Made by a program: the position numbers and the translations under genes. The notes below the pieces were generated by a model. It was not told the origin of the DNA. It was given only the letters and a program-made list of their open reading frames with translations, and made no database searches. Positions 201-21,536 of a DNA stretch of 34,931 nucleotides are shown here, one piece after another (the first letter of the stretch is position 1; every line of letters starts with the position of its first letter). This DNA comes from a virus: positions 1 to 34,931 of the IMG/VR virus record IMGVR_UViG_3300037137_001020. One strand, 5' to 3'.

Positions 201-216
201 CCTCCGCCCTCGGAGG
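201..216 (+). promoter_or_regulatory. Hairpin enclosing the portal ribosome binding site
   Basis: CCTCCG (201-206) and CGGAGG (211-216) form a perfect 6-bp stem with a CCCT loop. The right arm is also the Shine-Dalgarno sequence GGAGG for the portal gene. Folding would hide the ribosome binding site, so portal translation may depend on an unwinding event or on an RNA-binding factor. It could instead only mark the end of the upstream gene, but no T-run follows. The stem is short, so a regulatory role is inference. Confidence 0.4.
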
Positions 217-221
217 TGGCC

Positions 222-1886
222 TTGAAGACATCCTCTGCCTCAAGCATTGTTCTCGACGCTATCGACAAAGGCGGCGTCCGTCGCGAGGTACGCCTTCGCG
301 CCGTACCAATTGGCCCGTCCCCGGCTGCGATCCGGAAGGCGGAGGCCGAGAGCGATTCTCCAGACGCCGCCACATCCAACGCCGACCAGCAGGACCCGTT
401 CGCCAAGGTGTCCCTCGGCCAGCTGCGCCTGATCGATCCGCCATACCCGTTGCAGTGGCTTAGCTCACAGCGGGAGAACAACACGGAACTTGGTCAGTGC
501 ATCCGGGCGATGGTCGTTAACACCGTGGGCTTTGGTTGGACTATCCGCGAGCGCCCGATGGCTGAGGGGGTCCGCTCCGATCTGTCGGTCGATATTGAAG
601 CGGAGCGCCTTGTGTTGCAAGCCAAGCTAGAGGCTGTTCACCCGACCGAGTCTCTGGACATGATCTTGGAGAAGGTTAAGGACGACCAGCATTCTTGCGG
701 CAATGGCTACGTTGAAATGATCGAGGACGCCACGGGGGAGCTGGTCGGCCTCAACCACGTGGTGGGGCACGCCGTTCGTCTGACCGAGAAGATGCCACGG
801 CCAGTGAAGGTCAAGATGAAGCTGGTCCAGCCAGCCCAGAACTTTGAGCTGGCGGACGTCCCGATGTGGCATCGGTTCAGGCGTTTCGCCATGGTGTCTG
901 GCACAGGGAAGGTGATGTGGTTCAAGGAGGCCGGGGACCCCAGACCGATGGACAAATGGACGGGGGAGTTCGCGGACATCATACCTACCCAGCGTAGGGC
1001 AACCTCGCTCCTTCATTTCAAGGGCTACAACCCGCTGTCCGCCTACGGGGTCACGGGGTGGATAGGCAACCTCTTCTCTATCCGAGGCAGCCGACGTGCC
1101 GAGGAGATCAACTTCAACACCCTTACCAACAATGCTATCCCCTCCATGTTCGTGATCGTGGAGAACGGCGCATTGACCGAGGCTTCCATCGACCGTCTAC
1201 AGAAGTGGACAGAGGAGCAGGTACAGAAGGGTATGAACTATTCCCGGTTCCTGCTGATGGAGGGCGAGACGGTGGAGGACGGCACGCCTAACCCGCAGAG
1301 CTTTCGCATCCGCGTCATGCCGCTGGCTCAGTACCAAAAGGACGACCAACTGTTCCAGAAGTACGATGGCAACAACCGGGAGAAGGTCAGGCAGTCCTTC
1401 CGCCTACCGCCCATCTTTGTTGGCAGGACAGAGGACTACACCAGAGCCACAGCCGACACGAGCCGTGCGGTCGCGGATGAGCAGGTCTTCGCCCCTGAGC
1501 GCAACAAGGACACGTTCGCGGTCAACCGGTTCGTCCTCGCGCGGTGGGGCGCCCGCTTCCACACCTTCAAGCTGAATAACCCGAACGTCACCGACGACAT
1601 CCAATTGATCACCCTGATGGGCATGGCAGAGCGATCCGGAGGCATGACTCCAAGGCGAGCAGACCGCATCATCCGAGACGTGTTCGGCGAGGACATCGGG
1701 CCTATGCCGCAGGGGGTGCCGCTGGACGTGCCATTCTCGGTCACCTTCGCTCAAGCACAGTCAGGGCTTGGGTCGGGTGGCGGGGCGCCCAGTGGAGACA
1801 CGGCTCGCCGCGTGATCGATGGGATGCTAGACCTTCGCCGGAGGATCGAGAAGGAGCTGGATGACCGCTTCTTCCTTACCGAATAG
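222..1886 (+). CDS. Phage portal protein (PBSX/P2-like family)
   Basis: The portal is the dodecameric ring at the unique capsid vertex through which DNA is packaged and ejected and to which the tail attaches. The family is recognised from the early block with DPPYPLQWL followed by an asparagine-rich helix and a GFGW-type turn. Further support is a central segment around LLHFKGYNPLSAYG and the late segment FRLPPIFVGRTEDYTRATA, a typical portal signature. The length of about 554 residues fits. The longest frame begins at GTG 216, but the Shine-Dalgarno GGAGG (212-216) overlaps that codon. TTG at 222 has proper 5-nt spacing and is chosen. Gene order (MuF-type protein, protease and capsid gene downstream) agrees with the call. 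Confidence 0.88.
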   Translation: MKTSSASSIVLDAIDKGGVRREVRLRAVPIGPSPAAIRKAEAESDSPDAATSNADQQDPFAKVSLGQLRLIDPPYPLQWLSSQRENNTELGQCIRAMVVNTVGFGWTIRERPMAEGVRSDLSVDIEAERLVLQAKLEAVHPTESLDMILEKVKDDQHSCGNGYVEMIEDATGELVGLNHVVGHAVRLTEKMPRPVKVKMKLVQPAQNFELADVPMWHRFRRFAMVSGTGKVMWFKEAGDPRPMDKWTGEFADIIPTQRRATSLLHFKGYNPLSAYGVTGWIGNLFSIRGSRRAEEINFNTLTNNAIPSMFVIVENGALTEASIDRLQKWTEEQVQKGMNYSRFLLMEGETVEDGTPNPQSFRIRVMPLAQYQKDDQLFQKYDGNNREKVRQSFRLPPIFVGRTEDYTRATADTSRAVADEQVFAPERNKDTFAVNRFVLARWGARFHTFKLNNPNVTDDIQLITLMGMAERSGGMTPRRADRIIRDVFGEDIGPMPQGVPLDVPFSVTFAQAQSGLGSGGGAPSGDTARRVIDGMLDLRRRIEKELDDRFFLTE

Positions 1887-1895
1887 GAGAACCAC

Positions 1896-2246
1896 ATGGA
1901 AGGATATGTTCAAGTTAGCAAGGTGGACCTGGTCGAAGGGGAGGAGCTGATGGACCTCGCCAAGAAGGTCATGGCTGCCATCACTCAGAACAAGGGCAAG
2001 ACCAATCGAAGCCTCGGCCTAATGGGCATCTTCAAGGACCACATCGTGGTGAGGGACTTCGAGGACGGGAAGATGTTCAGGATGGAGATGAAGCGGGACG
2101 AGACCGGCAGTGTCTTGTTGGATGGCATGGAAGAGGTCCAGCAGAAGTTCGTCCCGGTCAAGCCGAAGGCAACAAAGGAAGAGGAGGAGCAGGGCAAGGG
2201 GGAGACCACGAAGCGGGACGGAGGGCTGTGGCGCGGCATCTTCTAG
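1896..2246 (+). CDS. Small acidic phage protein with C-terminal GLWRGI motif
   Basis: This 116-residue protein has a well-placed AGGAGA ribosome binding site just before ATG 1896. Residues about 15-85 look like a small alpha/beta domain with the pattern 'IVVRDFEDGKMFRMEM ... VQQKFVPV'. That resembles a short domain often found in XkdF-type phage head proteins, where dGkxyRv is followed by eVxxxYVP; this is recalled by pattern and not confirmed. The last 35 residues are highly charged (KEEEE, KGE, KRD) and end in GLWRGIF. The same ending, GLWSGILD, closes the scaffold-like protein at 10616-11770. It sits between the portal and the minor head protein, so a head assembly role is likely. The exact role is unknown. 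Confidence 0.7.
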   Translation: MEGYVQVSKVDLVEGEELMDLAKKVMAAITQNKGKTNRSLGLMGIFKDHIVVRDFEDGKMFRMEMKRDETGSVLLDGMEEVQQKFVPVKPKATKEEEEQGKGETTKRDGGLWRGIF

Positions 2247-3244
2247 ACCTATCCCTCCTCCCTGTTGAGGCGCTGGCAGACCTTCGAGAGGCTACCGATG
2301 GGCTTCTATGCCGGGTGACCAAGGTCAACGCCCGCCGCCTTGCCATGGCGATAGAGCGGAAGATGGGGGCGTCCATCTCACAGGCATGGAAGGCAGGCGC
2401 AGCATCCGGCTTGCAGACCGGCATCGGGCGGCTAGCCGCCGGGCCATTCACCGGGGCGGCCATCAGCGCCTTCCTTCGGGGGCTAGGGATCCAGCTGTCC
2501 ACGCCGCTCACGCCCCAACAACAGCAGGTGGTAGAAGGCAACCTGCGGTCCATCTACAGGGTCAGCAAGCAGGACGCGGTCACTGCGGCGCGGGGCAGGT
2601 TCATGTTTGGTGAGCCTGACCAGCTGGCCATTGCAGCCTCTGGCAACCAGCAGATGTTCTGGGTGGACAGCTTCTACAGTGAACAGCTGTCCACCCGCGT
2701 GTCTGCGGTGAGCCGGGACGTGTTGTTAGAGCAGGGGCTTAGTCACCGGGAGGCTGGCCCGGTTCTCCACAAGGCGCTGCGGCAGGAGTTTGGGCTTGTG
2801 CCAGGGCAGGCGGCCTCGCCCTTTGCTCCGTCCGTGCCAGCGCGGTACGCAGGCAACCCGGACTTCTACTTCCAGCAGGTCTCGTCCGTCGCAGGACACC
2901 AGTCCCGCATCTTCGGCAAGATGACAGGCTACAACGATGCCGGGGTGCGGAGGGTTCAATTGGTCAACCCGAACGATGAAAGGACAGGGACCCTTTGCCA
3001 ACAGATGAATGGGCAGGTATTCACGGTCAACGCGGGCATGGCTAGGATGTCCAAGATCGTTGGAGCCGCGTCTCCAGACGAGGTCAGAGAGGAGGCCCCG
3101 TGGCCAACGGCAGACACTGTGGCTGATGAACTAGCAGGGACCCGGCCGGGTAGCCGGGCTGCCACAACCGCGCTGGAGGGGATGAACACGATCCTGCCCC
3201 CATTCCACCCGTTGTGCCGAACAGAAGTGGTCATCCTGGACTAG
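2228..3244 (+). CDS. Minor head protein, MuF (SPP1 gp7-like) family
   Basis: MuF-type proteins bind the portal and are carried into the procapsid. The C-terminal part shows the family signature: NPNDERTGTLCQQMNGQVF at residues about 247-265, then PPFHPLCRT at about 324-332. These two Asp/Cys/His-containing segments are the conserved core of the MuF domain. The N-terminal two thirds is helical and variable, including an Ala/Gly-rich stretch at about 55-85. The gene starts with GTG 2228 and overlaps the previous gene by 19 nt. A GGAGGG sits only 2 nt before the start, so the start is somewhat uncertain. At 338 residues it is a normal length. Its TAG stop is the first triplet of a 27-bp palindrome. 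Confidence 0.85.
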   Translation: MARHLLDLSLLPVEALADLREATDGLLCRVTKVNARRLAMAIERKMGASISQAWKAGAASGLQTGIGRLAAGPFTGAAISAFLRGLGIQLSTPLTPQQQQVVEGNLRSIYRVSKQDAVTAARGRFMFGEPDQLAIAASGNQQMFWVDSFYSEQLSTRVSAVSRDVLLEQGLSHREAGPVLHKALRQEFGLVPGQAASPFAPSVPARYAGNPDFYFQQVSSVAGHQSRIFGKMTGYNDAGVRRVQLVNPNDERTGTLCQQMNGQVFTVNAGMARMSKIVGAASPDEVREEAPWPTADTVADELAGTRPGSRAATTALEGMNTILPPFHPLCRTEVVILD

Positions 3245-3268
3245 GATGCTCAGACTTTGAGCATCCTA
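3242..3268 (+). repeat. 27-bp palindromic element, copy 1
   Basis: Perfect 11-bp arms TAGGATGCTCA (3242-3252) and TGAGCATCCTA (3258-3268) flank the loop GACTT. The first three bases are the stop codon of the minor head protein gene. A second copy at 33616-33642 has identical arms and the reverse-complement loop, so the two copies are the same element in opposite orientation. No T-run follows, so a classic Rho-independent terminator is not clearly supported. An operator, an RNA-processing hairpin or a small mobile palindrome are alternatives. It separates the head genes from the queD-dpdA operon. Confidence 0.8.
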
Positions 3269-3289
3269 CGAGCGAAAGTGAGGAAGCGA

Positions 3290-3694
3290 ATGTGGACCCT
3301 GAAACGAGCCTTCAGCTTTGAGGCCGCCCACTACTTGCCTAACCACGATGGCAAGTGTAGCCGCTTGCATGGCCATAATTGGAAGGTCTGGATCATGCTG
3401 GAGAGCCCTGCGCTGGTGGGGCGTGGGCCATCCACGGGGATGGTGATAGACTTCTATGACCTGTGGCGTGTGGTCAATGAGACGGTAGGCACCCTTCTTG
3501 ATCACCGCGCATTGAACGACGTGCCTGGACTGGAGAACCCCACCTCGGAGAATATCGCCAAGTGGATTTACGACAGGTTGTTGCCCGTGTTGTCTTGGAC
3601 TGAGCCTGATCGCCAGTTGCGTTACCCGCTGGAGCTGCTGGCAGCAATTGAGGTCGAGGAGACGCCTGGCTGCTCCGTCACGTACCGTCCATGA
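3290..3694 (+). CDS. queD: 6-carboxytetrahydropterin synthase QueD
   Basis: QueD converts dihydroneopterin triphosphate to 6-carboxy-5,6,7,8-tetrahydropterin, the second step towards 7-deazaguanine bases. Numbering from ATG 3290, the zinc ligands are His14 in FSFEAAH and His27/His29 in RLHGHN, with the catalytic Cys23 in between (GKCSRLHGH). The acidic segments near DHRALND and the Glu-rich end fit the T-fold enzyme. The frame can be extended upstream to 3257, but that start lies inside the palindrome. ATG 3290 follows GAGGAAG at good spacing and gives the usual beginning (MWTLKRAFSFEAAHYL) and length (134 residues). It overlaps queE by ATGA. A pterin-synthase relative (PTPS) is the only serious alternative. 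Confidence 0.9.
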   Translation: MWTLKRAFSFEAAHYLPNHDGKCSRLHGHNWKVWIMLESPALVGRGPSTGMVIDFYDLWRVVNETVGTLLDHRALNDVPGLENPTSENIAKWIYDRLLPVLSWTEPDRQLRYPLELLAAIEVEETPGCSVTYRP

Positions 3695-4302
3695 CCAAGC
3701 GATACCCAATAAAGGAATGCTTTCTCTCCTTGCAGGGGGAGGGGGTGCGGGCTGGCACGGTAGCTGTGTTCCTCCGCTTTGCGGGATGCAACTTGAACTG
3801 CAAGAAGGAGACGGTAGGGTGGGATTGTGACACCGACTTCAGTGGTGGCGATGCATTGTCACTGCCGGAGGTAGTTAGCCTTGTAACTCGGACAGCTGGA
3901 AAGTCGGCGAGGGTTCCAGCACATTCGTGGATCGTGTTGACAGGAGGTGAACCAGCCCTGTTCATGGATGCTGACCTGTCTGTTGCGTTGAGGATCTCTC
4001 ACCGGCTGGCGATAGAGACCAATGGAACGATACCACTGAACTTCGCCCCAGACTGGATCACCGTGTCACCGAAGCCGGGTGCTCCTGTTGTCGTGCCCGG
4101 GGCAGACGAGGTCAAGGTGGTGCTACGGGCTGGGGATGCGATCCCTGCTGTTGACGTGAAGGCGGGCGTCCACTTGCTAAGCCCTGCTTTTGAGGGGGCT
4201 ACCCTCCCAGAGGCGAACCTGCGACACTGCATCCAGTTGTGTTTGGAGAACCCACGATGGAGACTGTCCGTCCAACTTCACAAGCTAGTGCGGATCAGGT
4301 GA
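3691..4302 (+). CDS. queE: 7-carboxy-7-deazaguanine synthase QueE (radical SAM)
   Basis: QueE rearranges 6-carboxytetrahydropterin into CDG using S-adenosylmethionine and a 4Fe-4S cluster. Visible family marks are the N-terminal LSLQGEGVRAG, FLRFAGCNLNC, CDTDF, the SAM-binding TGGEP (residues 84-88), IETNGT, and SPKPG. The C-terminal 'VQLHK' is also typical. The cluster cysteines are Cys33, Cys37 and Cys46, spaced C-x3-C-x8-C. This is not the standard radical SAM C-x3-C-x2-C, but QueE is known to vary here. At 203 residues it has family length. The start ATG overlaps the queD stop by 4 nt, showing translational coupling. The end overlaps the next gene by 46 nt. Confidence 0.9.
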   Translation: MTKRYPIKECFLSLQGEGVRAGTVAVFLRFAGCNLNCKKETVGWDCDTDFSGGDALSLPEVVSLVTRTAGKSARVPAHSWIVLTGGEPALFMDADLSVALRISHRLAIETNGTIPLNFAPDWITVSPKPGAPVVVPGADEVKVVLRAGDAIPAVDVKAGVHLLSPAFEGATLPEANLRHCIQLCLENPRWRLSVQLHKLVRIR

Positions 4303-5609
4303 GGCCGCTGGTCATCATCCAGCCTGTCTCATGGGACCGCGTCCAGGCTGGGGTCTGGTATCAGCCCTCGTGGCTGCATGCCTCCGCCACGTTCAATGGG
4401 CGGGAGTCCTACTTATACGAGGACGCGGACCTCTTTGCTGTGGACGCGATATTCGCGGGGCACGGACCTCAAGCTCAGTACGTGGTTGACTTGTCGTCCT
4501 ACCCGCAGCTGGACCTGGTCCGCCAGATCCACAGGGAGCGCACAAGGTCCTACGACGTCCGCTTTATGGGGCTTGACCCACTGCTTAGGGAGCACGGCGT
4601 CGGTCCCCTAGCGGACGCTGGGGACTATCAGCTGGACTTAGCGGAGGGGGCCTTTGAGTACCGGCGGATCAACTTGTCTATGGCCAGACGGCACGCGGAC
4701 GACTATGACGGTCACCTGCGGTCCTTCGATAACGGCCAGCCTTGGTGCCCCGCCTTTTTCAGCGTGGGTTGTGATCGTCGGTGCCCCTATTGCTACGTTG
4801 GTTACGTGTCCTTCCCTCGGGCCTTCTCCTCCGTCAGGCAAGCGGAGGACACTATCCGATGGGCTGCGGAGTCCGGCGTCAACCTCCACTTCTATGATGA
4901 GGACTTCTACCTGCACCCCGAGCTGGACACCATCTTGGCTATGCTGGAGGGCAGCGGTGTGAAGTGGATCGCTCTAGCCACCAGCGTGTCCTTGGCCGCA
5001 GCCATCGAAAAGTACGGAGAGGACACGCTGGTCGAGTCCGGCAACGTCCTCAACGAGGTTGGAGTGGAGACGGCTGACCCTAGCGTCTTGGACAAGCGCC
5101 AAGACCTACGGGCCATTCTTGCCGCGAGGTCCATCCGCGTGTTCTGGCTGACCGTGACCTTCTTCCCCAAGGAGACGTTGACCAGTCGCTTCAAGACTGG
5201 TCAGTTCCTTCAGCGGCACGGCTATGACTTTGACCAACTGATGCCCCGGCTGGTGGGGAACAGCTCCCACGGCGGGCTCGGACAGTTCTATGTGCCGTAC
5301 CACGGCACGCCTTGGTTCGAGTCCGCTCCAAGGAAAGGGGTGTTCCTAGAGGGCAGGCCGACCCGCCTGTGGCCGGGCTACGTTCCTCACTCCTTCTTGG
5401 AGGACGTCCCAGTTCAGACCGGGGGGTCCGTAGAGGACCTGCGCTGGTTCGACATCTACCACGGTGTCGCTGGTATCTGGGAGGAGATGCTGGCTGGCTG
5501 CGACGGTCGCAGGACGGTCGGGGATATCTGTGAGCGGCGACAGTCTGACCTGGTTGCTATGGCACAGCTTGCCCAGCTTGGGCTGGTGAGGAGTTGCAAT
5601 GAACCCTGA
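4257..5609 (+). CDS. Radical SAM enzyme with a winged-helix-like C-terminus
   Basis: The protein carries the canonical cluster motif C-x3-C-x2-C (CDRRCPYC) at residues 172-179. A barrel-like region with [11 protein letters not shown] (about 205-215) and [13 protein letters not shown] follows, typical of the MiaB/HemN-like radical SAM fold. About 165 residues precede the motif and show no clear cobalamin-binding signature. The last ~45 residues ([15 protein letters not shown], then AQLAQLGLV) resemble the small winged-helix/PqqD-like modules seen at the ends of peptide- or cofactor-modifying radical SAM proteins. ATG 4257 with GGAG 8 nt upstream is preferred over GTG 4239. It lies between queE and folE in one overlapping operon, so a role in modifying a deazaguanine product is possible. 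The substrate is unknown. Confidence 0.78.
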
Positions 5610-6177
5610 GCATCGGATACGTGCGGAGGCTCTGGTTAGGGAGCTGATAGCTATCATCGGCGACGACCCCACGCGCCCGGGTCTGCTGGATACGCCGCAT
5701 CGTGTGGTCAAGTCCTGGGGGGTGTTGTTCTCCGGGTACGAGCACAAGACCGAGGAATTCGTCCGGGTGTTCGAGGAGTCCTACGACGCCATCGTGGCGG
5801 TCAAGGACATAGACTACTTCTCCGCTTGTGAGCACCACATGCTCCCATTCTTTGGGAGGTGCCACGTAGCCTACCTGCCAGCTATCAATGGGGACAGGGC
5901 GGGGAAGGTGCTGGGCGTCTCCAAGCTCGCCCGCATCGTGAACAACGTGGCGAGGCGGTTGCAGATCCAAGAGCGGATGACCCGGGAGATCGCTGAAGCC
6001 ATTGAACAGGCGGCTCACCCCAGGGCCGTCGCGGTCATCGTGGAGGGGACGCACCTCTGCATGGTGGCCAGGGGCGTTAACCAGCAACACGCCGTCATGC
6101 GAACCAGCGCCATGCTAGGCGACTGGCTGGAAGACCATCGCGGTAAGGACGAGGCCATGCGCCTCTTGGGGCTATAA
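5599..6177 (+). CDS. folE: GTP cyclohydrolase I (FolE)
   Basis: FolE opens GTP to dihydroneopterin triphosphate, the substrate of QueD, and so supplies the first step of 7-deazaguanine synthesis (and of folate). The zinc ligands are visible: Cys77 and His80 in [10 protein letters not shown], and Cys154 in [11 protein letters not shown]. Other family marks are [15 protein letters not shown] near the start, [20 protein letters not shown], and [12 protein letters not shown]. The length of 192 residues is standard for the single-domain enzyme. The gene starts at ATG 5599 with GGAG upstream and overlaps the radical SAM gene by 11 nt. Together with queD and queE it makes the pathway from GTP to CDG complete in this operon. 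Confidence 0.95.
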
Positions 6178-6179
6178 CC

Positions 6180-6926
6180 ATGAACATCGTCTTGGCACCC
6201 CACCTGGATGACGAGGTGATCGGCTGCTACTCCGTCCTGGGTTCCATCGACCAGATCTACTATTTCACCACCGACCACCGCGAGGCGTGCATCGCCGGGG
6301 ACCACCGGTATGCTAGGTGGTCTACGGTAGAGGCCGCTGGTATCCGTGACTCCGACGTGGTCTACATCCCCAGCTCCTTTGACTGGCACCCTATGCACCG
6401 CAAGGTGAACAGGGTGGGGCTTGCCCTCCCTGGGTCCAAGTGGTTCTACAGTGTGGAGATGAATACGCCTTGGCTTGAGGAGGAGCCGGACTGGCAGGGG
6501 AAAAAGGCGATGTTGGAGAGGTGCTACCCTGGCGAACCCCTCCTGGAGAAGTGGTGGAGGTTCCGTTCCATCCAGTCCTTTGACGAGGTGATCTGGGCTA
6601 GCGTCCTCCTGACCTTCGAGGGCAAGCACCGATGGCTGGATGCCCCGGTCATGGTCGAGTTCCTTCGCCACCTCCACCGACATGTGTTCCACGTGCGAAC
6701 GGACGTCCAACAGATGGAGGGCGATCGGGAGCTGGAGTATTTCATCCTCCGAGGAGTGGTGAAGGCTGCGCTGGATGACATCCTCCACACCATGTGGAAG
6801 GAAGACGGTATGTCGTGCGAGGCGTTCGCCCGGGAACTCAAGCGGAGGATGGAGGTCGCCTTTGACGACCGCTTGGTTCGGGTGGCCGTATCAGAAGACG
6901 GAGAAAACGGATGCCTAGCGGAGTAG
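6180..6926 (+). CDS. PIG-L/LmbE-type deacetylase fused to a conserved phage domain
   Basis: Residues 1-130 match PIG-L family zinc deacetylases, which remove acetyl groups from N-acetylglucosamine-type sugars. APHLDDEVIGC (residues 6-16) supplies His8 and Asp11, and HPMH (70-73) supplies the second histidine site. Residues about 139-225 form another domain, with FEGKHRW, HLHRHVFHV (165-172), GDRELEYFIL and SCEAFARELKRRM. By memory this pattern occurs as a stand-alone phage protein of unknown function with an HRHxFHV core. The histidine-rich beta pattern recalls the T-fold of QueD, but that is a guess. The gene begins 2 nt after folE and overlaps the methyltransferase by 16 nt. It may act on a sugar added by the neighbouring glycosyltransferase. 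Confidence 0.75.
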   Translation: MNIVLAPHLDDEVIGCYSVLGSIDQIYYFTTDHREACIAGDHRYARWSTVEAAGIRDSDVVYIPSSFDWHPMHRKVNRVGLALPGSKWFYSVEMNTPWLEEEPDWQGKKAMLERCYPGEPLLEKWWRFRSIQSFDEVIWASVLLTFEGKHRWLDAPVMVEFLRHLHRHVFHVRTDVQQMEGDRELEYFILRGVVKAALDDILHTMWKEDGMSCEAFARELKRRMEVAFDDRLVRVAVSEDGENGCLAE

Positions 6927-7450
6927 ACTTTGATTCCGCCTACTACGACCGCGTCCAGTGGTCAGTCCCAGACACCCTCAAGGACGTCCTGTCCTCTGCC
7001 TGTGCGGGGCTGTCCGTTTTGGACGTCGGGTGCGGGATTGGCGTTGTAGGCGAGGTTGTGGTGAGGGTCGCTGCCAAATACACGGGTGTGGACATCAGTG
7101 CCCACGCCGTGTCGGTCTGCACAGCTAAGGGGCTGGAAGCCTTCTGCGCGGACGCAATGGCCGTGGACATGAGTGGATACGACCTCGTCCTTGCCCTTGA
7201 GGTTCTGGAGCACCTCAGCAACCCTGCGGGCGCCGTTGAGAGGATGGCCGCTGCACCGCGCTCCATCGTGACCGTGCCTCGTACCGACGACCCCACCAAA
7301 TACGATGACCCTACCCACGTCTCCCTGCTGACCGCGCCCGCGTGGTTGCGCCTGTTCGCCGCAGCGAACCTATTCCCTGACCGCTGGTTTGAGGTGGACT
7401 GGGGAGACCGTTCGGTGTCCGTGGGTTGGGGGTTGAGGAGGATCGCGTGA
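6911..7450 (+). CDS. Class I SAM-dependent methyltransferase
   Basis: A 179-residue protein with a Rossmann methyltransferase core: motif I VLDVGCGIG at residues 36-44, GVDIS at 59-63 at the end of the second strand, CADA at 79-82, and LEVLEHL at 96-102 (motif IV region). The rest is short, without an obvious target-recognition domain, so a small-molecule, sugar or base substrate is more likely than sequence-specific DNA. ATG 6911 follows GGAG at 7 nt and lies within the end of the deacetylase gene. The stop overlaps the next start as GTGA. Placement between queE and dpdA suggests a part in decorating the modified base or its sugar. That is inference from context. Confidence 0.8.
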   Translation: MPSGVDFDSAYYDRVQWSVPDTLKDVLSSACAGLSVLDVGCGIGVVGEVVVRVAAKYTGVDISAHAVSVCTAKGLEAFCADAMAVDMSGYDLVLALEVLEHLSNPAGAVERMAAAPRSIVTVPRTDDPTKYDDPTHVSLLTAPAWLRLFAAANLFPDRWFEVDWGDRSVSVGWGLRRIA

Positions 7451-8511
7451 TCTACTACCTCCCGATCGAGCCGTTGGATGAACGCTACACGGAGCAGTGG
7501 TACAGGTGGTTCCCTGCCGAGTTCCAGCGGCAGGGCCTCGCCTACCAGGTTATCGATGGAGAGCCTCTTGTGGACGAGGTGCAGGTAGGCACGTTCCTGG
7601 ACGTCAACTCCACGCTTCACTACAAGGCAGAGCAACTCAAACGGGTGGCCCGCCTCTTTCACGGCAAGCAGGTGAAGGACGGGGACGTCTTCCTCGTTGC
7701 CGACGTGGAGTTCTGGGGGATCGAGAGTATCCGTTACCTCGCCGTGCTCAACAAGGTGAACGTACGGATGGTCGGCTTCGTGCATGCGGGAAGCTACACG
7801 GTAGAGGACTTCATGGAACCGTGCGCCCCGTTTGCCAGCCACTACGAATGCGCCTGGGGAGCGGTCTTCGATGTCCTGTGTGTAGGCAGCGATTACCACA
7901 AGAAGGCACTTGTGACCAAGCGTGGGGTCCTTGAATCCAAGATACAGGTGACCGGCAACCCCTATGACCTATCTGAGGTGAAGGCGCTTGTGGGACCTCT
8001 GGGGACGTCCAGGGCCCGTGTCATTCACACCAACCGGCCGGACCCTGAGAAACGCCCGGGGTTGACGCTGGACCTGTTCGAGCGCCTGCACCTCGCCCAC
8101 CCCACGTGGGAGTTGATGGTGACCACGAGCCGCAAGACCTGGGGACGTGGCGCCTTGCGTGAAAGGGCCTTGGCGTTGCAGGATAGGGGGGTGGTCGTTG
8201 TTCGTGAGGCTATCTCGAAGGCGGAGTACCTGGGACTGCTGGCCGGGAGTCGGGTCATGACAGGCAACACGATAGAAGAGAACTTCGGCTATTGTGTTCT
8301 GGAGGCCATGGCCTTGGATACCATCCCTGTCATCCCTGACCTGGGTAGCCACCCCGAGCTTGTGGATGGCGACTCCCGCTGCCTCTTCCGATGCATGGAA
8401 ATGCAACAGGCATTGATCGGGCGGGCGATGAAACACCCGTTCCCGGTCGCGGGCTACGCCGAGAAGTACCGTGGGAGTCTGTCCAAAATCGTTGACCTCT
8501 GCAAAGGGTGA
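7447..8511 (+). CDS. GT-B fold glycosyltransferase (GT4-like)
   Basis: The C-terminal half shows the GT4-type donor-binding region: TNRPDPEKRPG, a segment leading to AEYLGLLAGSRV, then EENFGYCVLEAMALDTIPVI. The last is the E-x-FG-x3-LEAMA signature that binds the nucleotide of the sugar donor. The N-terminal half (YYLPIEPLDERYTEQW, DVFLVADVEFWG, GFVHAGSYT) fits the acceptor domain. The longest frame starts at 7426, but GTG 7447 has GAGGAGG 5 nt upstream and makes a GTGA overlap with the methyltransferase stop, so it is preferred. Related phage enzymes glycosylate DNA bases or virion proteins. Here the operon context, 3 nt before the DpdA-like gene, favours a DNA base. The target is not proven. 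Confidence 0.8.
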   Translation: MIYYLPIEPLDERYTEQWYRWFPAEFQRQGLAYQVIDGEPLVDEVQVGTFLDVNSTLHYKAEQLKRVARLFHGKQVKDGDVFLVADVEFWGIESIRYLAVLNKVNVRMVGFVHAGSYTVEDFMEPCAPFASHYECAWGAVFDVLCVGSDYHKKALVTKRGVLESKIQVTGNPYDLSEVKALVGPLGTSRARVIHTNRPDPEKRPGLTLDLFERLHLAHPTWELMVTTSRKTWGRGALRERALALQDRGVVVVREAISKAEYLGLLAGSRVMTGNTIEENFGYCVLEAMALDTIPVIPDLGSHPELVDGDSRCLFRCMEMQQALIGRAMKHPFPVAGYAEKYRGSLSKIVDLCKG

Positions 8512-8514
8512 CCC

Positions 8515-10548
8515 ATGTTTCGGTGCTACCAAGTCGCCAACAACCCAGATCGCATCCATCTCCTGCTGGAGGAGGGGGTGAAGGACATCCTCGTCTCCTA
8601 CGCCTACGCCCGCCGTGCAAAGGGCTACTTGGAGGGGATGAAGGTGGCGGCCAAGAAAGGAGTCAAGCTCCTCATTGATTCTGGCGCCCATTCCAACATC
8701 CAGCACCCTGGGACCGTGGTGCTCAAGGAATACATGGCGTGGCTCAAGGAGAACAAGCACCTCGCCCACGAATACATAGTGTTGGACGACCCATTGAAGA
8801 GGGAGAACACGATCAAGGCGTACGCGGAAATGCGGTCGGCCGGGCTGAACCCGTTGGCTGTGGACCACATGTGGTTCAAGGTCGCGCCTCAGATCATGCC
8901 CTGGTATACCAAGGGAGGGCGGCTATGCTGGGCTGGGTTCTTGATCGGGGATAGGACCCCCATGGGCCAGTGGGCTAAGAATGAAGAGGTCCAGAAGAAA
9001 ATGCCCGAGGGATACGCCTCCCACTTCCAGACCACGGCTCAGTGGCTTGCTGTGGCGAAGCGGATCCATGAGAGGCGCGCCCACGCGATGAAGGCGCCAG
9101 TCAACCGCATCCACCTCCTAGGGGTGGGGAGCGCGATCCGCAAGTTCCTCCCGTACCTCGACGCCGTGGACAGTTTTGATGCCGCGTCCGTCTTCATCGC
9201 GGCGGGCTACGGGCGGGTTATCTTGTGCAGGGCACCGAAGCATGAAGGCGGACCGCCCCGCTGTAGTGGGTTCCCGGTTGGGCGAGGCCGCCCAACCCCG
9301 CCAGAGGTCAAGGTGCTGGCGTCCAAGTGGAAGCTGAACCTTGACGTAGAGGTGGACCGTCGACGGTTCAACATCCGGGAGATGCGGAAGTTCCATGAGG
9401 ACCTCTGGGAATACTACCAGCGCGAACACAAGAAGGGCCACGACCACTTGGTGGCGATGTCCATCAAGAAGTCGGATGAGGATGATGACCTCTATCCCTC
9501 CCGCCCATTGATCGTCCAGGTCCCTATCGCTTTGAGTGATGCCTGGGGCGAGTGGCTGGAGCTGGAGGAGATGGAAGAGGTGTGTGCCCAGGCTCGGATG
9601 AAGGTGTCCGACGTGTCCCCTACCCGCATCTCCAAGATGCCGGACCCCAGCCTGTTGCTCCTGCATGAGGAGATACACCTCGCGCCCCTGGAGGCAGCTG
9701 GCCTACGGGAGGCCCACCTCTTCATCGTGCAAGAGATGGCCAAGAGGGGGCTGACCCACGCACTAGAAGAGGTGGACCTGCTGGCGGTTTCAACCCGGGA
9801 GCTGGCCGCGGAGCTGGGGCTGGTGGCAGAGGAGTTGGAGACACTGGGGCTGGTCGAGAAACAGATGGTCATCCAGTCCCTCATCCTCAGTAAGGACAAG
9901 TTCAAGACCCAGGCGGAGGTTACCAAGTGGATCAAGGACCACGGGTTCACCGTCCTGAAGGGCGACGAGGTCGAGATCACCAAGCCCGGGGTGGATGAGA
10001 CCACGCAAAGCTGGAGGGTTCGGCAGCGGGACCCGGAGGACTTCCAGCCTGGGTCTTTCCGTACCATCGACATCGCCGATGGCGTCAAGGCCGTGGTTGG
10101 GAAGTTGAAGCCTGGGGTGGAGAAGTCGGATGGTGACCTCTTCAACCCGGTGATTGACCTCTTCAACCCGGTGATGCATGCGAAGCTACTCCCGGTGGAC
10201 AAGGCAGACGAGGATCGTAGGCTAGTCCTCGGAGTGGTCCTTGAGCCTAACAGCGTGGACACCCAGGGTGACACCATCGCTCCGGAGGAGATAGAGCGGG
10301 CAGCCCATCTATGGCTGGCCCGGTTTCAGGACCGGGGGTTCATGCATCGGCAGATCGTCAACAGCAAGTTGGAGATCTACGAAAGCTACCTAGCACCGGC
10401 CGACTTGACCATTGGAGGGCAGAGGGTTAAGAAAGGGAGCTGGCTCCTTATGTACCATGTCGTGGACGATGTACTCTGGGCAGCTGTCAAGCGCGGTGAC
10501 CTGACCGGGTTTTCTATGGGGGGCTTTGCTCGGAGGGTAGCCGCGTAG
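8515..10548 (+). CDS. Fusion of a DpdA-like DNA-guanine transglycosylase with an XkdF-type head protease
   Basis: One unbroken 677-residue frame. Residues 1-310 resemble DpdA, the TGT-fold enzyme that inserts 7-deazaguanines into DNA: LLIDSGAHS (52-60), YIVLDDP (87-93), NPLAVDHM, CWAGFLIGDRT, HLLGVGS (200-206), and VDSFDAASVFIAAGYG (218-233). Residues about 375-425 (LLLHEEIH, then HLFIVQEMAKRGLTH) and 460-535 (FKTQAEVTKWIKDHGF, WRVRQRDPEDF, GVKAVVGKLKPG) are segments common in phage head proteins. Residues 568-674 match the XkdF putative serine protease: VVLEPNSVDTQGDTI, FMHRQ (His611), YES (Glu623), GDLTGFSMGG (Ser667). ATG 9457 (residue 315) could be an internal start but lacks a close ribosome site. 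The protease may cut the two halves apart. The domain calls are by motif only. Confidence 0.75.
   Translation: MFRCYQVANNPDRIHLLLEEGVKDILVSYAYARRAKGYLEGMKVAAKKGVKLLIDSGAHSNIQHPGTVVLKEYMAWLKENKHLAHEYIVLDDPLKRENTIKAYAEMRSAGLNPLAVDHMWFKVAPQIMPWYTKGGRLCWAGFLIGDRTPMGQWAKNEEVQKKMPEGYASHFQTTAQWLAVAKRIHERRAHAMKAPVNRIHLLGVGSAIRKFLPYLDAVDSFDAASVFIAAGYGRVILCRAPKHEGGPPRCSGFPVGRGRPTPPEVKVLASKWKLNLDVEVDRRRFNIREMRKFHEDLWEYYQREHKKGHDHLVAMSIKKSDEDDDLYPSRPLIVQVPIALSDAWGEWLELEEMEEVCAQARMKVSDVSPTRISKMPDPSLLLLHEEIHLAPLEAAGLREAHLFIVQEMAKRGLTHALEEVDLLAVSTRELAAELGLVAEELETLGLVEKQMVIQSLILSKDKFKTQAEVTKWIKDHGFTVLKGDEVEITKPGVDETTQSWRVRQRDPEDFQPGSFRTIDIADGVKAVVGKLKPGVEKSDGDLFNPVIDLFNPVMHAKLLPVDKADEDRRLVLGVVLEPNSVDTQGDTIAPEEIERAAHLWLARFQDRGFMHRQIVNSKLEIYESYLAPADLTIGGQRVKKGSWLLMYHVVDDVLWAAVKRGDLTGFSMGGFARRVAA
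10135..10176 (+). repeat. 21-bp tandem duplication inside the DpdA-XkdF gene
   Basis: Two adjacent 21-base units (10135-10155 and 10156-10176) agree at 20 of 21 positions and encode DLFNPVI then DLFNPVM. They sit in the linker just before the protease domain. The near identity, including codon use, points to a recent slippage duplication. The frame is kept. Confidence 0.85.
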
Positions 10549-10615: not shown

Positions 10616-11770
10616 ATGGCACATAAGACACCAAATGCCGCGGAGGCGAAGCTCACCGACTTGGACGTTCGTGAAGTCTCGGTCGTGGACCGCCCCGCCA
10701 ACAAACGCCGCTTCCTCATCGTCAAACGGGATGAGGGGCTGGCAGTAATTCGTACGGAGGAGACGATGTCCAGAACAGCCATCCCAAGGGCAGAGGCGGA
10801 GGAATTCGGTCACATCCTGCTGTCCGACGACGGGGCGGTAGGTATCCTTAAGGACGAGGACCTCGCGGAACTCGTTGGCGCGGATGACGGGGATGCCGAA
10901 GCCGAAGAGGACGAGGACGTGGATGCGGAGGACGAGGTCATCGAAAAGGGCGCGGTATCTGACACCGTCAGTATCGCCAAGGCCGCCCTCGCCAAGCTCA
11001 TGGCAGTGGTCAACAAGCTCAAGAAGGAGAAGGAGGCTGGCGGCAAACCGGACTCCTCCGTCCTGTCCGTGGTGAGGCAGGTCGCGGCGGCTCTGACCGC
11101 CCTCGTGGAGAAGCTTGGGGACTCCGATGGAAAGGGGAAGGACAAGGACAAGGAAGAGGACACCACGGAGAAGGCGGCCAAGGATGCCCTGGCTGTCTGC
11201 ACCGCCGCCATCGGATCGTTGACCAACGCCATCAACCAACTCAAGGACGCGGAGGCGGATGGCGACGTTCCCCCGCCGGTCATCAATGTCCTGCGTGCCG
11301 TGGCTAACGCCCTGAGTGGTTTGGCCGGGGGCGATGGTGGCAACACGGAGGAGGAGGGCAAGGGCAAGGGCAAGGGCAAGAAACCACCAGTGGAGGAGAC
11401 GGAGAAGCAGTCCCGCCTGGAGGTCTTTATGAAGCGGGGCGACGAGTCCGCCGACCCCGAGGTCATGATCAAGGTTGGCACCAAGATGAAGCGGACGCGG
11501 CTCAGCCTGTTCAAGAAGGCTGTGGAGATGCTGGCTGACATCTTGAAGGAGTTGTCCCCATCGGACCAAGACCGGGCGAAGGGGTCGAAGGCCAATCAAG
11601 ACTTCCAGCGTGCCATGCTGGAGAAGCTGGATGGGATTGGCGCCTCCGTGGGGAAGGTCGTCAAACGGGTGGATGAGTTGGAGGCTGGCGGTCGACCTGC
11701 GGGAGCTGATGATGACCCGAAGGTCGTGGAGAAGAAACAGAAGGGCTTATGGTCCGGCATCCTTGACTAA
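10616..11770 (+). CDS. Scaffold-like head protein (XkdF-associated C-terminal region)
   Basis: A 384-residue charged protein. Residues 13-40 (LTDLDVREVSVVDRPANK, then RRFLIVKRDE) match a segment that normally follows the protease domain within XkdF-type proteins. Here it begins a separate gene. The rest alternates acidic runs (about 90-108), Lys/Glu-rich linkers (about 197-208, 242-255) and Ala/Leu helices, and is of scaffold type. It ends in GLWSGILD, close to the ending of the protein at 1896-2246. The start ATG 10616 has CAGGTAA upstream, and the major capsid gene follows after 47 nt. The likely job is guiding capsid assembly, with removal by the protease encoded just upstream. Scaffold function is inferred from composition and position. 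Confidence 0.65.
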   Translation: MAHKTPNAAEAKLTDLDVREVSVVDRPANKRRFLIVKRDEGLAVIRTEETMSRTAIPRAEAEEFGHILLSDDGAVGILKDEDLAELVGADDGDAEAEEDEDVDAEDEVIEKGAVSDTVSIAKAALAKLMAVVNKLKKEKEAGGKPDSSVLSVVRQVAAALTALVEKLGDSDGKGKDKDKEEDTTEKAAKDALAVCTAAIGSLTNAINQLKDAEADGDVPPPVINVLRAVANALSGLAGGDGGNTEEEGKGKGKGKKPPVEETEKQSRLEVFMKRGDESADPEVMIKVGTKMKRTRLSLFKKAVEMLADILKELSPSDQDRAKGSKANQDFQRAMLEKLDGIGASVGKVVKRVDELEAGGRPAGADDDPKVVEKKQKGLWSGILD

Positions 11771-11817: not shown

Positions 11818-13011
11818 ATGACAAACCGAGAGTTGATCGCCAAAGCGACGATCACGACCGACGCGATGGCCGCCGTTGGTCTGCTACTCCCAGAGCAGGC
11901 CGACAAGTTCATTGACTACGTGGTCGATGAGACGGGCATCAAGGACATGAGCCGGATCATCAGGTTCAAGCCGTCGCAGAAGTACATTGACAAGATCTCC
12001 GTCGGTCGCCGCATGGCCGTCCCGAAGGAGGAGGCAATCGACCCGGGTGTTCGGCGAGGCGTGTCCACGTCACGGCTCGTCCTCGAGCACCGGGAGATCA
12101 TGGTGCCGTTCGAGATCTCTGATGTCGTGAAGGAGGAGAACATCGAAGGCGACGCGGTCGAGGAGCATGTTATCAAGATGATGGCGACGACCTTCGCCAA
12201 CAACATGGAGGAGATGTTCTGGGATGGGAATACCCTCGGCCCAGCGGCTGTCGAGGCTGACCTCTACGAGGGCGGGTCCAGCCTGTGCATCAAGGACACG
12301 CTCCTGGCCCTGTTCCCGGGCTTCCTCAAGTTGTCCGAGGGCGGGCATGTGATCGATGCCGCAAACGAACCTATCACCCCCAGCCTCATCAGCCGGGCAC
12401 TCAACGCCATGCCCAACAAGTTCCGCAAGAACAGGGCAGCCATGAAGTTCCTCATGAGCCCGGACCACGAGCAGGTCTACCGGGAGAAGATCAGCACCCG
12501 TGCGACCCAGTCCGGGGATTCAGCACTGGCCGCCACGGGGAACATCCCGAGCTTCGGTGTGGAGCTGGTTCCGGTCGCCCTGCTGTCCTCCACTCCGCCG
12601 TATTGCGAAAACAGCGTGGCCAACACCGACGGAACCACGGCAACGGCCCTGAGCTACGGCCCCATCGATGACCTGGTGCTGACCCCGACCACGCTCGCCA
12701 AGATCCCTACGGCGCCCTACATTCTGAACACGGACTACACCGTGAACGAGACCGCGGGCACGTGGACCAGGCTCGCTGGCACGGCCATCGGCTCGGGCGC
12801 AACCGTGAAGGCGACCTACAAGACGGCTGGCCGGATCGTCCTCACCAACCCGCAGAACCTGATCGTTTGCATCGGTCGGGACATCCGGATCGAGAAGGAC
12901 AGGAACATCTTCAAGGGCGTGAACGAGTTTGCCATCACTGGCAAGGTTTGGTGCGCCATGGAAGAGACGGACATGGTCGTAGTGATCAAGAACGTTGCGG
13001 TCCCGGCCTAA
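11818..13011 (+). CDS. Major capsid protein
   Basis: A 397-residue protein at the capsid position, right after the protease and scaffold genes, with a strong AAGGAG ribosome site. The N-terminal helix (RELIAKATITTDAMAAVGLLLPEQADKF) and following region with FEISDVVKEENIEGDAVEEHVI and NNMEEMFWDGN resemble HK97-fold capsid proteins: N-arm, E-loop, then spine helix. The FLMSPDHEQVYREKI block and the end (NLIVCIGRDIRIEKDRN, ETDMVVVIKNV) fit P- and A-domain strands. Residues about 282-338 (NTDYTVNETAGTWTRL, GATVKATYKTAG) look like an inserted small beta domain on the capsid surface. A cleavage site for the protease cannot be placed by eye. High expression is expected. Confidence 0.85.
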   Translation: MTNRELIAKATITTDAMAAVGLLLPEQADKFIDYVVDETGIKDMSRIIRFKPSQKYIDKISVGRRMAVPKEEAIDPGVRRGVSTSRLVLEHREIMVPFEISDVVKEENIEGDAVEEHVIKMMATTFANNMEEMFWDGNTLGPAAVEADLYEGGSSLCIKDTLLALFPGFLKLSEGGHVIDAANEPITPSLISRALNAMPNKFRKNRAAMKFLMSPDHEQVYREKISTRATQSGDSALAATGNIPSFGVELVPVALLSSTPPYCENSVANTDGTTATALSYGPIDDLVLTPTTLAKIPTAPYILNTDYTVNETAGTWTRLAGTAIGSGATVKATYKTAGRIVLTNPQNLIVCIGRDIRIEKDRNIFKGVNEFAITGKVWCAMEETDMVVVIKNVAVPA

Positions 13012-13703: not shown

Positions 13704-18995
<5,292 letters not shown>

Positions 18996-19005
18996 AGGAG
19001 CGACC

Positions 19006-19368
19006 ATGGCGGATGGGCCAGCGGCAATCCTCCACGACACCAGCGGGAATGAAAAGGGCGTAACAGCCAACCCGGTGACCATCGTGGTTGTCCCGGCGGC
19101 AACGCCCGCCTGCACCAATGTGTCGGCGGCCGTGGCCGACACCGCTCTCCTAGCGGCAAGTTCCACCCGATTGTGGAGCGCCATCTTCAACGACTCCGTG
19201 GCCACCCTCTACCTGAAGCTCGGGACCGGGGCGAGCACGACCTCGTTCACCATCGCCCTCGGGCGGTACGACTACTACGAACCCCCCGCGCACTACACCG
19301 GGGCGATCAACGGCTACTGGAGCGCGGCCTCGGGGAGCGCGCGGGTCACCTCGCTGTCGATTGCCTGA
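19006..19368 (+). CDS. Small virion beta-sandwich protein
   Basis: A 120-residue protein with AAGGAG 6 nt before ATG 19006. The block RLWSAIFNDSVATLYLKLG, then GRYDYYEPPAHYTGAINGYW and ARVTSL, is a pattern I recognise from small phage structural proteins near fibre genes. Its exact role is unknown. Ala- and Val-rich strands precede it. It follows the collagen gene by 10 nt and its stop overlaps the next ATG by one base. Likely part of the fibre or capsid surface. Confidence 0.72.
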   Translation: MADGPAAILHDTSGNEKGVTANPVTIVVVPAATPACTNVSAAVADTALLAASSTRLWSAIFNDSVATLYLKLGTGASTTSFTIALGRYDYYEPPAHYTGAINGYWSAASGSARVTSLSIA

Positions 19369-20060
19369 TGCCCCCACGCCGCAACATACTGGAGGGTTGG
19401 AGGAACCCAGATCACGGCTACGTGCCGCAAGCAGATCGGTCTAGGTTCTACTTCTGGGATGACTTTGACGGGGGGAACTGGGACCAGCGGTGGTGGCGGA
19501 CGGGCGGAGGGCCTGGGTACTCCTTCTTCACGATGGACACCATCACGACCGGGATTGCCGGTGTCCTCCGTGGGATCGTCTCGTCCACGGCAACGAGGAC
19601 CTCCTACATCGACCAGAACACGGTCAAGGGCTTCAGCCTGAATAGCGCCGCTGACATCGCGAGGCTCGACCTCACGTGGCGGGTCCAGCTCGTGCTGGTG
19701 ACCTACCTCTCCTTCACGATGAGCTTCTACATTGACGCCACTCACTTTGTGGACATCCAGCTCGACACCGCCGTGGGCGTCAACTGGCTCATTCGTTCCT
19801 ACAATGGCGCTTCCAACACCACGACGGACACGGGGGTTGCTCCGGCGGCGGCCACTTGGTACAAGCTCCAGATCACCGGGCTCAAGGACGGGAGTGGGTT
19901 TGACTTCTTTGCGAACGGGGTGCGGTTGGGGACCATCACAACCAACATCCCGACGGGGGAGGCGGGCATCCAGATCCTGGTCACCAGGAGAACTGGCGGG
20001 ACTGGGACGAGGACGTGGTACATGGACTGGGTTCAAGCGACCGGGGCGAGGGTAGCTTAG
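19368..20060 (+). CDS. Virion beta-sandwich protein, first of three tandem paralogues
   Basis: A 230-residue protein. ATG 19368 overlaps the previous stop (TGATG); the longer upstream extension lies inside the previous gene and is not used. The layout is a leading RFYFWDDFDGGNWDQRWW, strands with FSFYIDATHFVDIQL-like content, then ITGLKDGSGFDFFANGV, and the close TTNIPTGEAGIQILV followed by MDWVQ. This is what laminin-G/concanavalin-like lectin folds look like. The next two genes repeat the same plan: aromatic 'DDF' start, TTxxPT turn, then (T/L/M)DW(V/I)(E/Q). It may bind glycans on the host surface or decorate the fibre. The fold is inferred from pattern. Confidence 0.72.
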   Translation: MPPRRNILEGWRNPDHGYVPQADRSRFYFWDDFDGGNWDQRWWRTGGGPGYSFFTMDTITTGIAGVLRGIVSSTATRTSYIDQNTVKGFSLNSAADIARLDLTWRVQLVLVTYLSFTMSFYIDATHFVDIQLDTAVGVNWLIRSYNGASNTTTDTGVAPAAATWYKLQITGLKDGSGFDFFANGVRLGTITTNIPTGEAGIQILVTRRTGGTGTRTWYMDWVQATGARVA

Positions 20061-20702
20061 ATGCCCCTCATCCGCAGGCTGCGCCAGCGTCAGGACCTCG
20101 ACCGGTTCTACCTGTACGATGACTTCGCAACCTGCATGGACCCGGGCGAGACCCTCCAATACTGGGGTACGGCAAAGTCGGCAAGCTCGACGGTGCTGCC
20201 CATATCCGACGGGTCGCTGGAATTCCACGTGGCCAACGGGGACGCCGCTGGGTTTGCGACCCTCCACAAAATGCACAAGGGTCAGTACTCCGTCGCCAAG
20301 CGCGCCCAGATGAGAGGGCGGTTCAAGCTCAGTCGCGCCACGGACATCAATTGCCAGATCGCGTTCTACGGGACCGCCGCCAACGCCAGTGTGATGCTGA
20401 CCTATGACACCCAGATCAGCGTAGTGGACCCGACCCACTGGATCTTCATCACGGACAACGCCTCCAGCAACGAGAAGCACGACAGTGGGGTTGTGGCGAC
20501 CCCCACCGTCTGGCACGAGTTTGAGATCAAGTGCCTGGCGTCGAACAAAGCGGAGCTGTGGCTCGACGGAGCGTTGATCTGCACGAACACCACGTACATC
20601 CCGACCCAGGTCATGGAGCCGTCGTTCACGGTCAGCACCTACACGACCACGGGACCGTACATGTACTTGGACTGGATAGAGTTGGAAGGGGACAGGCTCT
20701 AG
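20061..20702 (+). CDS. Virion beta-sandwich protein, second tandem paralogue
   Basis: A 213-residue protein that begins at ATG 20061 directly after the previous stop, with GAGGG upstream. It starts MPLIRRLRQRQDLDRFYLYDDF, has WHEFEIKCLASNKAELWLDGA in the middle, and ends with TTYIPTQVMEPSFTV followed by LDWIELEGDR. These match the plan of its two neighbours. Spacing of the shared motifs is nearly the same, so gene duplication is likely. A lectin-like (LamG/ConA) fold and a surface or fibre role are inferred. Confidence 0.72.
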   Translation: MPLIRRLRQRQDLDRFYLYDDFATCMDPGETLQYWGTAKSASSTVLPISDGSLEFHVANGDAAGFATLHKMHKGQYSVAKRAQMRGRFKLSRATDINCQIAFYGTAANASVMLTYDTQISVVDPTHWIFITDNASSNEKHDSGVVATPTVWHEFEIKCLASNKAELWLDGALICTNTTYIPTQVMEPSFTVSTYTTTGPYMYLDWIELEGDRL

Positions 20703-20703
20703 C

Positions 20704-21312
20704 ATGCCCCTCCGTAAGTTCGACCCCGCCTCCGCCGTGGGCGGTCACCAGTGGATCACCGATGACTTTGGCGGGGCCCTGTATGATTGCTACATGTGGG
20801 GCTTGGTTGGGGGCTCTGGGTCCATTCCGGTTGTGGCCTCCGCCGTCGGCGGGCTGATCGTGGTCAGAGCGGACGCCAGCAACTACTACGAGCTGGCCGC
20901 GCTGTACCCGCAGTTCACGGTGGCCAGGAACTTCCAGATCACCTGGCGGGGCAAGCTCGAGTCCCTCACGACCAGCCGGGCGGCTTGGGGGTTGCAGACG
21001 GACGTTAACAACCGGGTCGAGTGGATCTACGAGGCGGCGCTAGGGGCGAACTGGCGATGCCGATCCGTGGCCAGCTCAACGGACACGGTCGTGGCGTCCG
21101 CCGTTGCTGCGGATACCGCCTTCCACGAGTTCACGATGGTGAGCGCCACGGGCTTGGTTCACTTCGCCCTGGACGGCGTTCCCATCACCACTATCACGAC
21201 CAACCTCCCAACGGGGGCCCTTGGTCCGTTCATCCGCTCGACCAGCACTGCGGCCGGGACGCGGGACGTGACGACGGACTGGGTCGAGGCTTTCTGCGAC
21301 AGGACGGCGTGA
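20704..21312 (+). CDS. Virion beta-sandwich protein, third tandem paralogue
   Basis: A 202-residue protein with ATG 20704 one base after the previous stop; AAGGGG lies about 12 nt upstream. It opens MPLRKFDPAS with WITDDFGGALYD, carries FHEFTMVSATGLVHFALDGV, and closes TTNLPTGALGPFIRS with TTDWVEAFCDR. The closing block is clearly the same as in the first paralogue (TTNIPTG...MDWVQ). The N-terminal half is the most divergent of the three. Lectin-like fold inferred. Replacement of strands at the likely binding loops would suit host-range variation. Confidence 0.72.
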   Translation: MPLRKFDPASAVGGHQWITDDFGGALYDCYMWGLVGGSGSIPVVASAVGGLIVVRADASNYYELAALYPQFTVARNFQITWRGKLESLTTSRAAWGLQTDVNNRVEWIYEAALGANWRCRSVASSTDTVVASAVAADTAFHEFTMVSATGLVHFALDGVPITTITTNLPTGALGPFIRSTSTAAGTRDVTTDWVEAFCDRTA

Positions 21313-21526: not shown

Positions 21527-21536
21527 GTAGGTCGTG

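Follow-up and report, generated by a model that had tools for sequence, protein, structure and literature searches.

The window, by which we mean the whole stretch of 34,931 nucleotides of viral DNA analysed here, encodes enzymes of a 7-deazaguanine pathway in the middle of its head genes. A portal protein, a small protein and a MuF-like protein are followed by QueD, QueE, a radical SAM enzyme, FolE, an unknown protein, a methyltransferase and a glycosyltransferase, after which come the fused DpdA-XkdF gene, a scaffold-like protein and the major capsid protein (Table 1). QueC was not found within the 34.9-kb window. The scaffold-like protein has an N-terminal tag (VREVSVVDRPANKRRFLIVK) known from classic XkdF proteins. 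Its tail, KQKGLWSGILD, resembles that of the small protein encoded after the portal gene (1896-2246), KRDGGLWRGIF; tails of this type, which close scaffold homologues in many relatives, possibly constitute a capsid-binding C-terminus.

Further downstream, a collagen-like protein of 1,760 residues with G-T-G/G-P-T/S repeats is encoded at 13713-18995, and the 1,564-residue open frame on the strand opposite to this gene is probably a by-product of the repeats. Three similar proteins of about 200-295 residues with a lectin- or jellyroll-like look, apparently tandem duplicates, lie in a row at 19173-21312. A second group of modifying enzymes, consisting of a glycosyltransferase (PHROG 3408, E 2.3e-78), a radical SAM enzyme and a methyltransferase-like protein, is located at 21534-25050.

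Table 1. Features in and around the fused gene, with positions in the window.
Feature	Position	Strand	Basis or remark
Portal protein	216..1886	+	
MuF-like minor head protein	2228..3244	+	PHROG 9907, E 2.5e-5
QueD-like (6-carboxytetrahydropterin synthase)	3257..3694	+	PF01242, E 3.9e-33
QueE-like radical SAM enzyme	3691..4302	+	Weak Pfam match; assigned by sequence reading and conserved place between QueD and FolE
Radical SAM enzyme, role unassigned	4239..5609	+	PF04055, E 3.6e-9
FolE (GTP cyclohydrolase I)	5599..6177	+	PF01227, E 8.3e-63
Uncharacterised protein	6180..6926	+	Kept in several DpdA-XkdF operons
Class I methyltransferase	6911..7450	+	PF13489, E 4.9e-13
Glycosyltransferase	7426..8511	+	PF13692, E 1.6e-6; adjoins DpdA also in L028 and L037
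Fused DpdA-XkdF gene	8515..10548	+	ATG start, 677 residues, single open frame
DpdA/TGT-fold domain, residues 1-312	8515..9450	+	PHROG 887, AlphaFold2 model, Foldseek, alignment
Variable middle region, residues 313-464	9451..9906	+	
XkdF-associated module, residues about 465-537	9907..10125	+	
XkdF head maturation protease domain, residues 561-675	10195..10539	+	Pfam, PHROG; H611, E623, S667
Scaffold-like protein	10616..11770	+	PHROG 3017 at positions 3-32, E 3.1e-7
Major capsid protein	11818..13011	+	PHROG 1623 'virion structural protein', E 1.6e-67

The two enzyme halves of the fused protein

The DpdA-XkdF fusion of 677 residues in the window is confirmed to be real. The initial annotation had described it as one uninterrupted frame with a DpdA/TGT-like N-terminal half and an XkdF-like protease featuring His611, Glu623 and Ser667, and all of this is borne out by the gene model, the profiles, the fold and the conservation of the catalytic positions. 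The identity of the C-terminal half as XkdF (PF14550, Peptidase_S78_2) is beyond doubt and proteolysis is predicted from its sequence. PF14550 matches residues 561-675 with E 3.2e-25 (89 bits vs. a curated cut-off of 24), PHROG 3017 'head maturation protease' matches the XkdF half with E 1.9e-33 and, across 53 diverse XkdF proteins, H611 and S667 are invariant while E623 is nearly so.

Identification of the DpdA half (residues 1-312) by sequence is weaker than that of the XkdF half. In a profile search, residues 17-91 match PHROG 887 'queuine tRNA-ribosyltransferase' (E 1.6e-9); a Pfam match was not found for this half by itself, and tblastn of residues 1-307 against phages yields only marginal E-values. 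Setting aside those labelled 'hypothetical protein', the tblastn matches with an informative annotation are TGT/DpdA genes, among them that of the ChristophMerian phage DpdA. A profile search of PDB sequences with the DpdA half returned nothing relevant, and only the comparison of folds succeeded. Fold prediction and structural search, suggested at the outset for the N-terminal half and run on residues 1-312, reveal a TGT/DpdA fold: the AlphaFold2 model (pLDDT 84, pTM 0.85) finds archaeosine and queuine TGTs (tRNA-guanine transglycosylases) as its best PDB matches in Foldseek, and VIA-align gives Z 18.1 over 261 of the 312 residues for 1iq8 and Z 16.9 over 261 residues for 7ui4, the DNA preQ0 insertase DpdA. 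An alignment of 14 domains, taken from the window, from fused relatives and from five stand-alone phage DpdAs, shows no variation at D55-S56-G57, D91, H200, S220 and D222, although the fused DpdA is no more than 23-27% identical to the stand-alone phage forms. With a fold matching over the whole domain, catalytic aspartates, a DSG motif and deazaguanine synthesis genes nearby, residues 1-312 are, on the evidence of the model, an intact domain of the TGT/DpdA superfamily with a predicted capability of base exchange in DNA.

Between the two enzymes lies the variable middle region, which is partly common to the N-terminus of the DpdA-less XkdF proteins of L026 and L028, followed by the XkdF-associated module, which is lacking in L005, lies within the XkdF protein of L006 and forms a gene of its own in the L028 virus. 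The AlphaFold2 model of the full-length fusion (pLDDT 60, pTM 0.47) is too poor to judge domain contacts. L005, whose protein is 75% identical to that of the window and likewise fused, allowed the estimation of selection at a dS of about 0.95. Judging from dN/dS values of 0.13 for DpdA, 0.08 for XkdF and 0.35 for the middle, purifying selection on both enzyme halves is clear, while it appears much weaker on the connector.

DpdA-XkdF in other viruses

Three more assemblies in IMG/VR contain the same frame (L002, 100%; L003, 99%; L004, 98%). The search for other fusions proposed in the initial annotation was successful, as DpdA precedes XkdF in seven diverged lineages, namely that of the window and six further viral ones with chains of 644 (L024), 538 (L037), 918 (L039), 714 (L055), 1301 (L069) and 2226 residues (L103/L132). 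L024 is accompanied by QueD, QueE, FolE and QueC, and the L069 protein also harbours an ATP-dependent ligase. The longest chain combines DpdA, D12 methylase, ligase and XkdF and has QueE-like and QueC genes just upstream; its DpdA assignment in L132 relies on conserved catalytic columns and on a profile match that is weak (E 7e-4 in one search, 2e-6 in another). Outside the window's own group, the DpdA halves of the other lineages are 28-38% identical to that of the window. The fusion is not unique to the window but one architecture within a larger class of multi-enzyme proteins terminated by XkdF.

In every lineage whose upstream sequence was examined, deazaguanine synthesis genes (QueD, QueE, FolE, sometimes QueC) are present just 5' of the fusion, inside the head operon. 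Nine records, most of them fragments, gave a DpdA match, and in every case it is the only one and is accompanied by a single match to XkdF. All fused cases stem from uncultivated viruses, and none of the cultured phage records covers 80% of the DpdA-XkdF chain.

L006, L026 and L029 possess the same head genes and an XkdF without DpdA, the cassette being missing; these sequences are most simply explained by insertion of the deazaguanine cassette immediately in front of xkdF. In L028, a 95-kb virus, the gene for the small XkdF-associated module is found on the far side of the cassette, which is consistent with an insertion within an older xkdF gene. DpdA and XkdF of this virus are encoded by separate genes overlapping by a few bases, the second of which has a perfect Shine-Dalgarno sequence, and two contigs have this arrangement in common (2 mismatches in 6410 bases). 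A permanent tether between DpdA and protease is hence dispensable in L028. At the dpdA/xkdF junction of L028 (L028:4340-4363) and of L027 both frames taken together resemble the middle region of fused chains, a picture that the splitting of a former fusion would produce.

On the XkdF tree the pairing of DpdA with XkdF changes at least six times. A single origin was rejected by means of a one-clade constraint (p-AU 4.5e-38) in a test relying on a group defined by architecture, few columns, a quick tree and a single model. Since the fused DpdA domains cluster together, apart from stand-alone phage DpdAs (support 96/93), the exchange of cargo by recombination is just as probable as repeated new fusion.

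XkdF as the C-terminal domain of multi-enzyme proteins

Scans of IMG/VR, of one genome per prokaryote species and of added phage records led to 71 clusters of XkdF proteins at 90% identity, 37 of which have at least 300 and 20 at least 600 residues before XkdF. XkdF is the C-terminal domain of a large set of viral proteins with up to 2,226 residues, and these multi-enzyme proteins apparently had not been described previously. Among 53 non-redundant XkdF proteins, Pfam identifies an ATP-dependent DNA ligase in 16, a D12 adenine methylase in eight, a class I methyltransferase in about six, uracil-DNA glycosylase (UDG) in three, a 2H phosphoesterase in two and the Thoeris inhibitor Tad3 in one. 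LigD-type phosphoesterase motifs, for which there is no Pfam match, were recognised in several XkdF proteins by reading the sequence. XkdF-terminated chains of 1,200-2,226 residues (L031-L033, L062, L065, L073, L103/L132, L120) contain DNA ligase, methyltransferases (D12 or class I) and UDG, and repeated LigD-phosphoesterase-like motifs.

The genomic surroundings of the long XkdF genes are those of head genes: a scaffold homologue lies within 5 kb downstream in all 28 cases with enough sequence and a capsid homologue downstream in 24 of these, while upstream MuF is present in 18 and portal in 15 of 24. The sisters L069 and L072 differ in that the former bears an N-terminal DpdA and the latter, as far as can be read from its 5'-cut sequence, an apparent D12-type methylase, so that the cargo looks modular. 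The repeated joining of enzymes to XkdF suggests that these viruses may have a general means of directing DNA-protecting or DNA-repairing enzymes to the head during its assembly.

A D12 methylase-XkdF fusion (L049:3032-6340) has QueD and QueE directly upstream, and this 36.7-kb record yields no DpdA match, which is what a replacement of DpdA by the methylase would look like. None of the cultured phage records covers 80% of a methylase-XkdF chain. The assumption of such a fusion in cultured phages, which derived from PHROG 1530 'DNA methyltransferase', was abandoned, as the inspected genes encode protease-sized products of 134-155 residues. XkdF genes bear the name 'DNA methyltransferase' in many phage records (e.g. 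L007:2950-3411, L124:2504-2923, L126:2465-2869), and on a protease-sized XkdF it looks like a misannotation. The portal gene beside XkdF in L009 (Arthrobacter phage Mufasa8; about 1,000 residues; MutT/NUDIX hydrolase in the RefSeq copy) possibly represents another enzyme fused to a head protein.

Sequence tests for cleavage sites did not clearly set the N-terminal regions apart. The candidate motif [IV]xK-A-[DE] occurs there eight times vs. 2.1 times after shuffling, the controls amounting to 9 vs. 2.6, and the motif taken from the N-terminal edge of XkdF, at 0.27 per 1000 residues in N-terminal regions vs. 0.16 in controls from the same contigs, is not clearly commoner. Several Shine-Dalgarno-like sites might serve as an internal start for a free protease, none of which is kept across all members.

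Proposed function of the fusion and comparison with known systems

The best reading of the fusion, which we put forward tentatively, is that of a polyprotein made late and directed to the head, from which its own protease would free the DNA-modifying cargo at the procapsid. The DNA-guanine transglycosylase would be exchangeable N-terminal cargo, and the C-terminal XkdF head maturation protease would carry the chain to the assembling procapsid and cleave the variable middle while processing head proteins. Late in infection, DpdA would then work at the head or close to it and swap guanines of the phage DNA for the deazaguanine provided by the neighbouring enzymes. In favour of this reading we count the intact catalytic motifs and purifying selection in both halves along with the relaxed middle, the recurrence of the fusion across seven diverged lineages, immediately preceded by synthesis genes, the fact that none of the records yielded a DpdA or an XkdF besides the fused copy, the position of the gene between MuF/portal and scaffold/capsid genes, and the repeated joining of XkdF to DNA-acting enzymes with a scaffold homologue after 28 of 28 long genes. 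Against it stand the split in L028, cleavage motifs inseparable from controls, the origin of all fused cases from uncultivated viruses and the absence of QueC from the window. The scenario of the initial annotation, tethering to the procapsid or portal or else proteolytic release, is plausible, and the late timing proposed there fits the deazaguanine synthesis genes, which immediately precede the fusion within the head operon. With slightly greater reserve, the reading may be extended to XkdF as a general C-terminal domain for loading and releasing cargo: DpdA, D12 methylase, DNA ligase, UDG and Tad3, as exchangeable DNA-modifying, repair and anti-defence enzymes of many uncultivated viruses, would enter the procapsid, be freed inside it and, while the genome is packaged or delivered, modify or repair it.

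According to a rather unlikely alternative, which follows the polyvalent-protein model, the enzymes are packaged, cut free in the capsid and injected, DpdA acting mainly at the start of the next infection. XkdF partners such as ligase, UDG, D12 methylase, 2H and Tad3 would suit early protection or repair of incoming DNA, and Iyer et al. 2017 (PMC5512222) argue in this sense for polyvalent proteins and note their C-terminal assemblin-like peptidases. Yet, incoming DNA should be modified already, and the synthesis genes share the head operon with the fusion, from which it seems likelier that the base is used around the time of packaging, late in the cell that produces the virus. The companion cargo (ligase, UDG and Tad3) points instead to delivery into the next host. 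A single design could accommodate both: a C-terminal protease would bring the chain to the procapsid and free the cargo there.

We consider it marginally less probable still that insertion of the cassette before xkdF simply joined two frames, with DpdA free or attached in the cytosol and the protease devoid of a targeting role. This would agree with L006, L026 and L029, where the cassette is missing from the same set of head genes, and with L028, which works with separate genes. The changes of pairing on the XkdF tree and the rejection of a one-clade grouping speak against it, and accident alone poorly explains why unrelated DNA enzymes repeatedly occur on the same side of XkdF. Its low identity to stand-alone phage DpdAs might suggest that the DpdA half is a non-catalytic DNA- or protein-binding part of a head protein. 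This is very improbable in view of its dN/dS of 0.13, the invariance of every catalytic-type position and the retention of the synthesis genes nearby. An artefact of assembly or gene calling, of which a single 34.9-kb metagenomic record and the separate genes of L028 could raise suspicion, is rejected for practical purposes and a join between the halves ruled out, since the fusion recurs in three more assemblies at 98-100% identity, in another at 75% and in six additional lineages that have diverged further.

The fusion is real, recurrent and probably undescribed, though conceptually it adds a new protease and new cargo to the idea of polyvalent proteins. Through it, the modification of DNA bases is linked directly with the assembly of the capsid, and the testable question arises of where and when phage DNA gains its 7-deazaguanines. 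The wider set presents the head protease as a hub for DNA-protecting enzymes, and reading what is fused before XkdF offers a simple route to undescribed virion-associated anti-defence enzymes.

The presence of 7-deazaguanines in phage DNA and the part played by DpdA were established by Hutinet et al. 2019 (PMC6884629), in the text of which a search revealed Gat-QueC as the only fusion. Stand-alone DpdA (PMC6884629; 7ui4) and the fused form are alike in fold, catalytic-type positions and neighbouring FolE, QueD, QueE and, in part, QueC; the fused form differs in being joined to a head protease inside the head operon, whereas the inspected stand-alone phage dpdA genes sit with biosynthesis or replication genes, three of them adjoining a DNA polymerase clamp gene. 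The XkdF chains have in common with polyvalent proteins (Iyer et al. 2017, PMC5512222) unrelated enzymes, proximity to head genes and a C-terminal peptidase of virion-assembly type; in polyvalent proteins, according to that paper, the assemblin-like peptidases invariably take the C-terminal position. The chains studied here unite unrelated enzyme domains (two in the window, four in L132) and are encoded together with virion genes. Unlike that of polyvalent proteins, their cargo is mostly DNA ligase, D12 methylase and DpdA, and the main text of the paper mentions neither XkdF nor queuine or deazaguanine. According to excerpts of a jumbo-phage survey (PMC7824862), XkdF has no relationship to the S77 prohead peptidase, and an enzyme-XkdF fusion is not reported in them. 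The initial annotation knew of no described DpdA-XkdF fusion, and neither this nor any other enzyme-XkdF fusion was found in the literature searched, which, consisting of open-licence papers only, provides weak evidence on this point.

Classic XkdF (PF14550) agrees with the fusion in the domain itself, in the positions of the His and Ser residues and in its place before the capsid gene. It consists, however, as in L018-L020, of a short N-terminal tag, the protease and a C-terminal scaffold-like part, whereas in the window tag and scaffold form a separate gene and enzymes fill the N-terminal side. Alt and the internal proteins of T4 are packaged cargo processed by the head protease, cargo and protease being encoded by separate genes in T4. 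The XkdF chains would resemble them if their cargo rides in the head and is cut by the protease, and they differ from them in that cargo and protease are combined in one chain.
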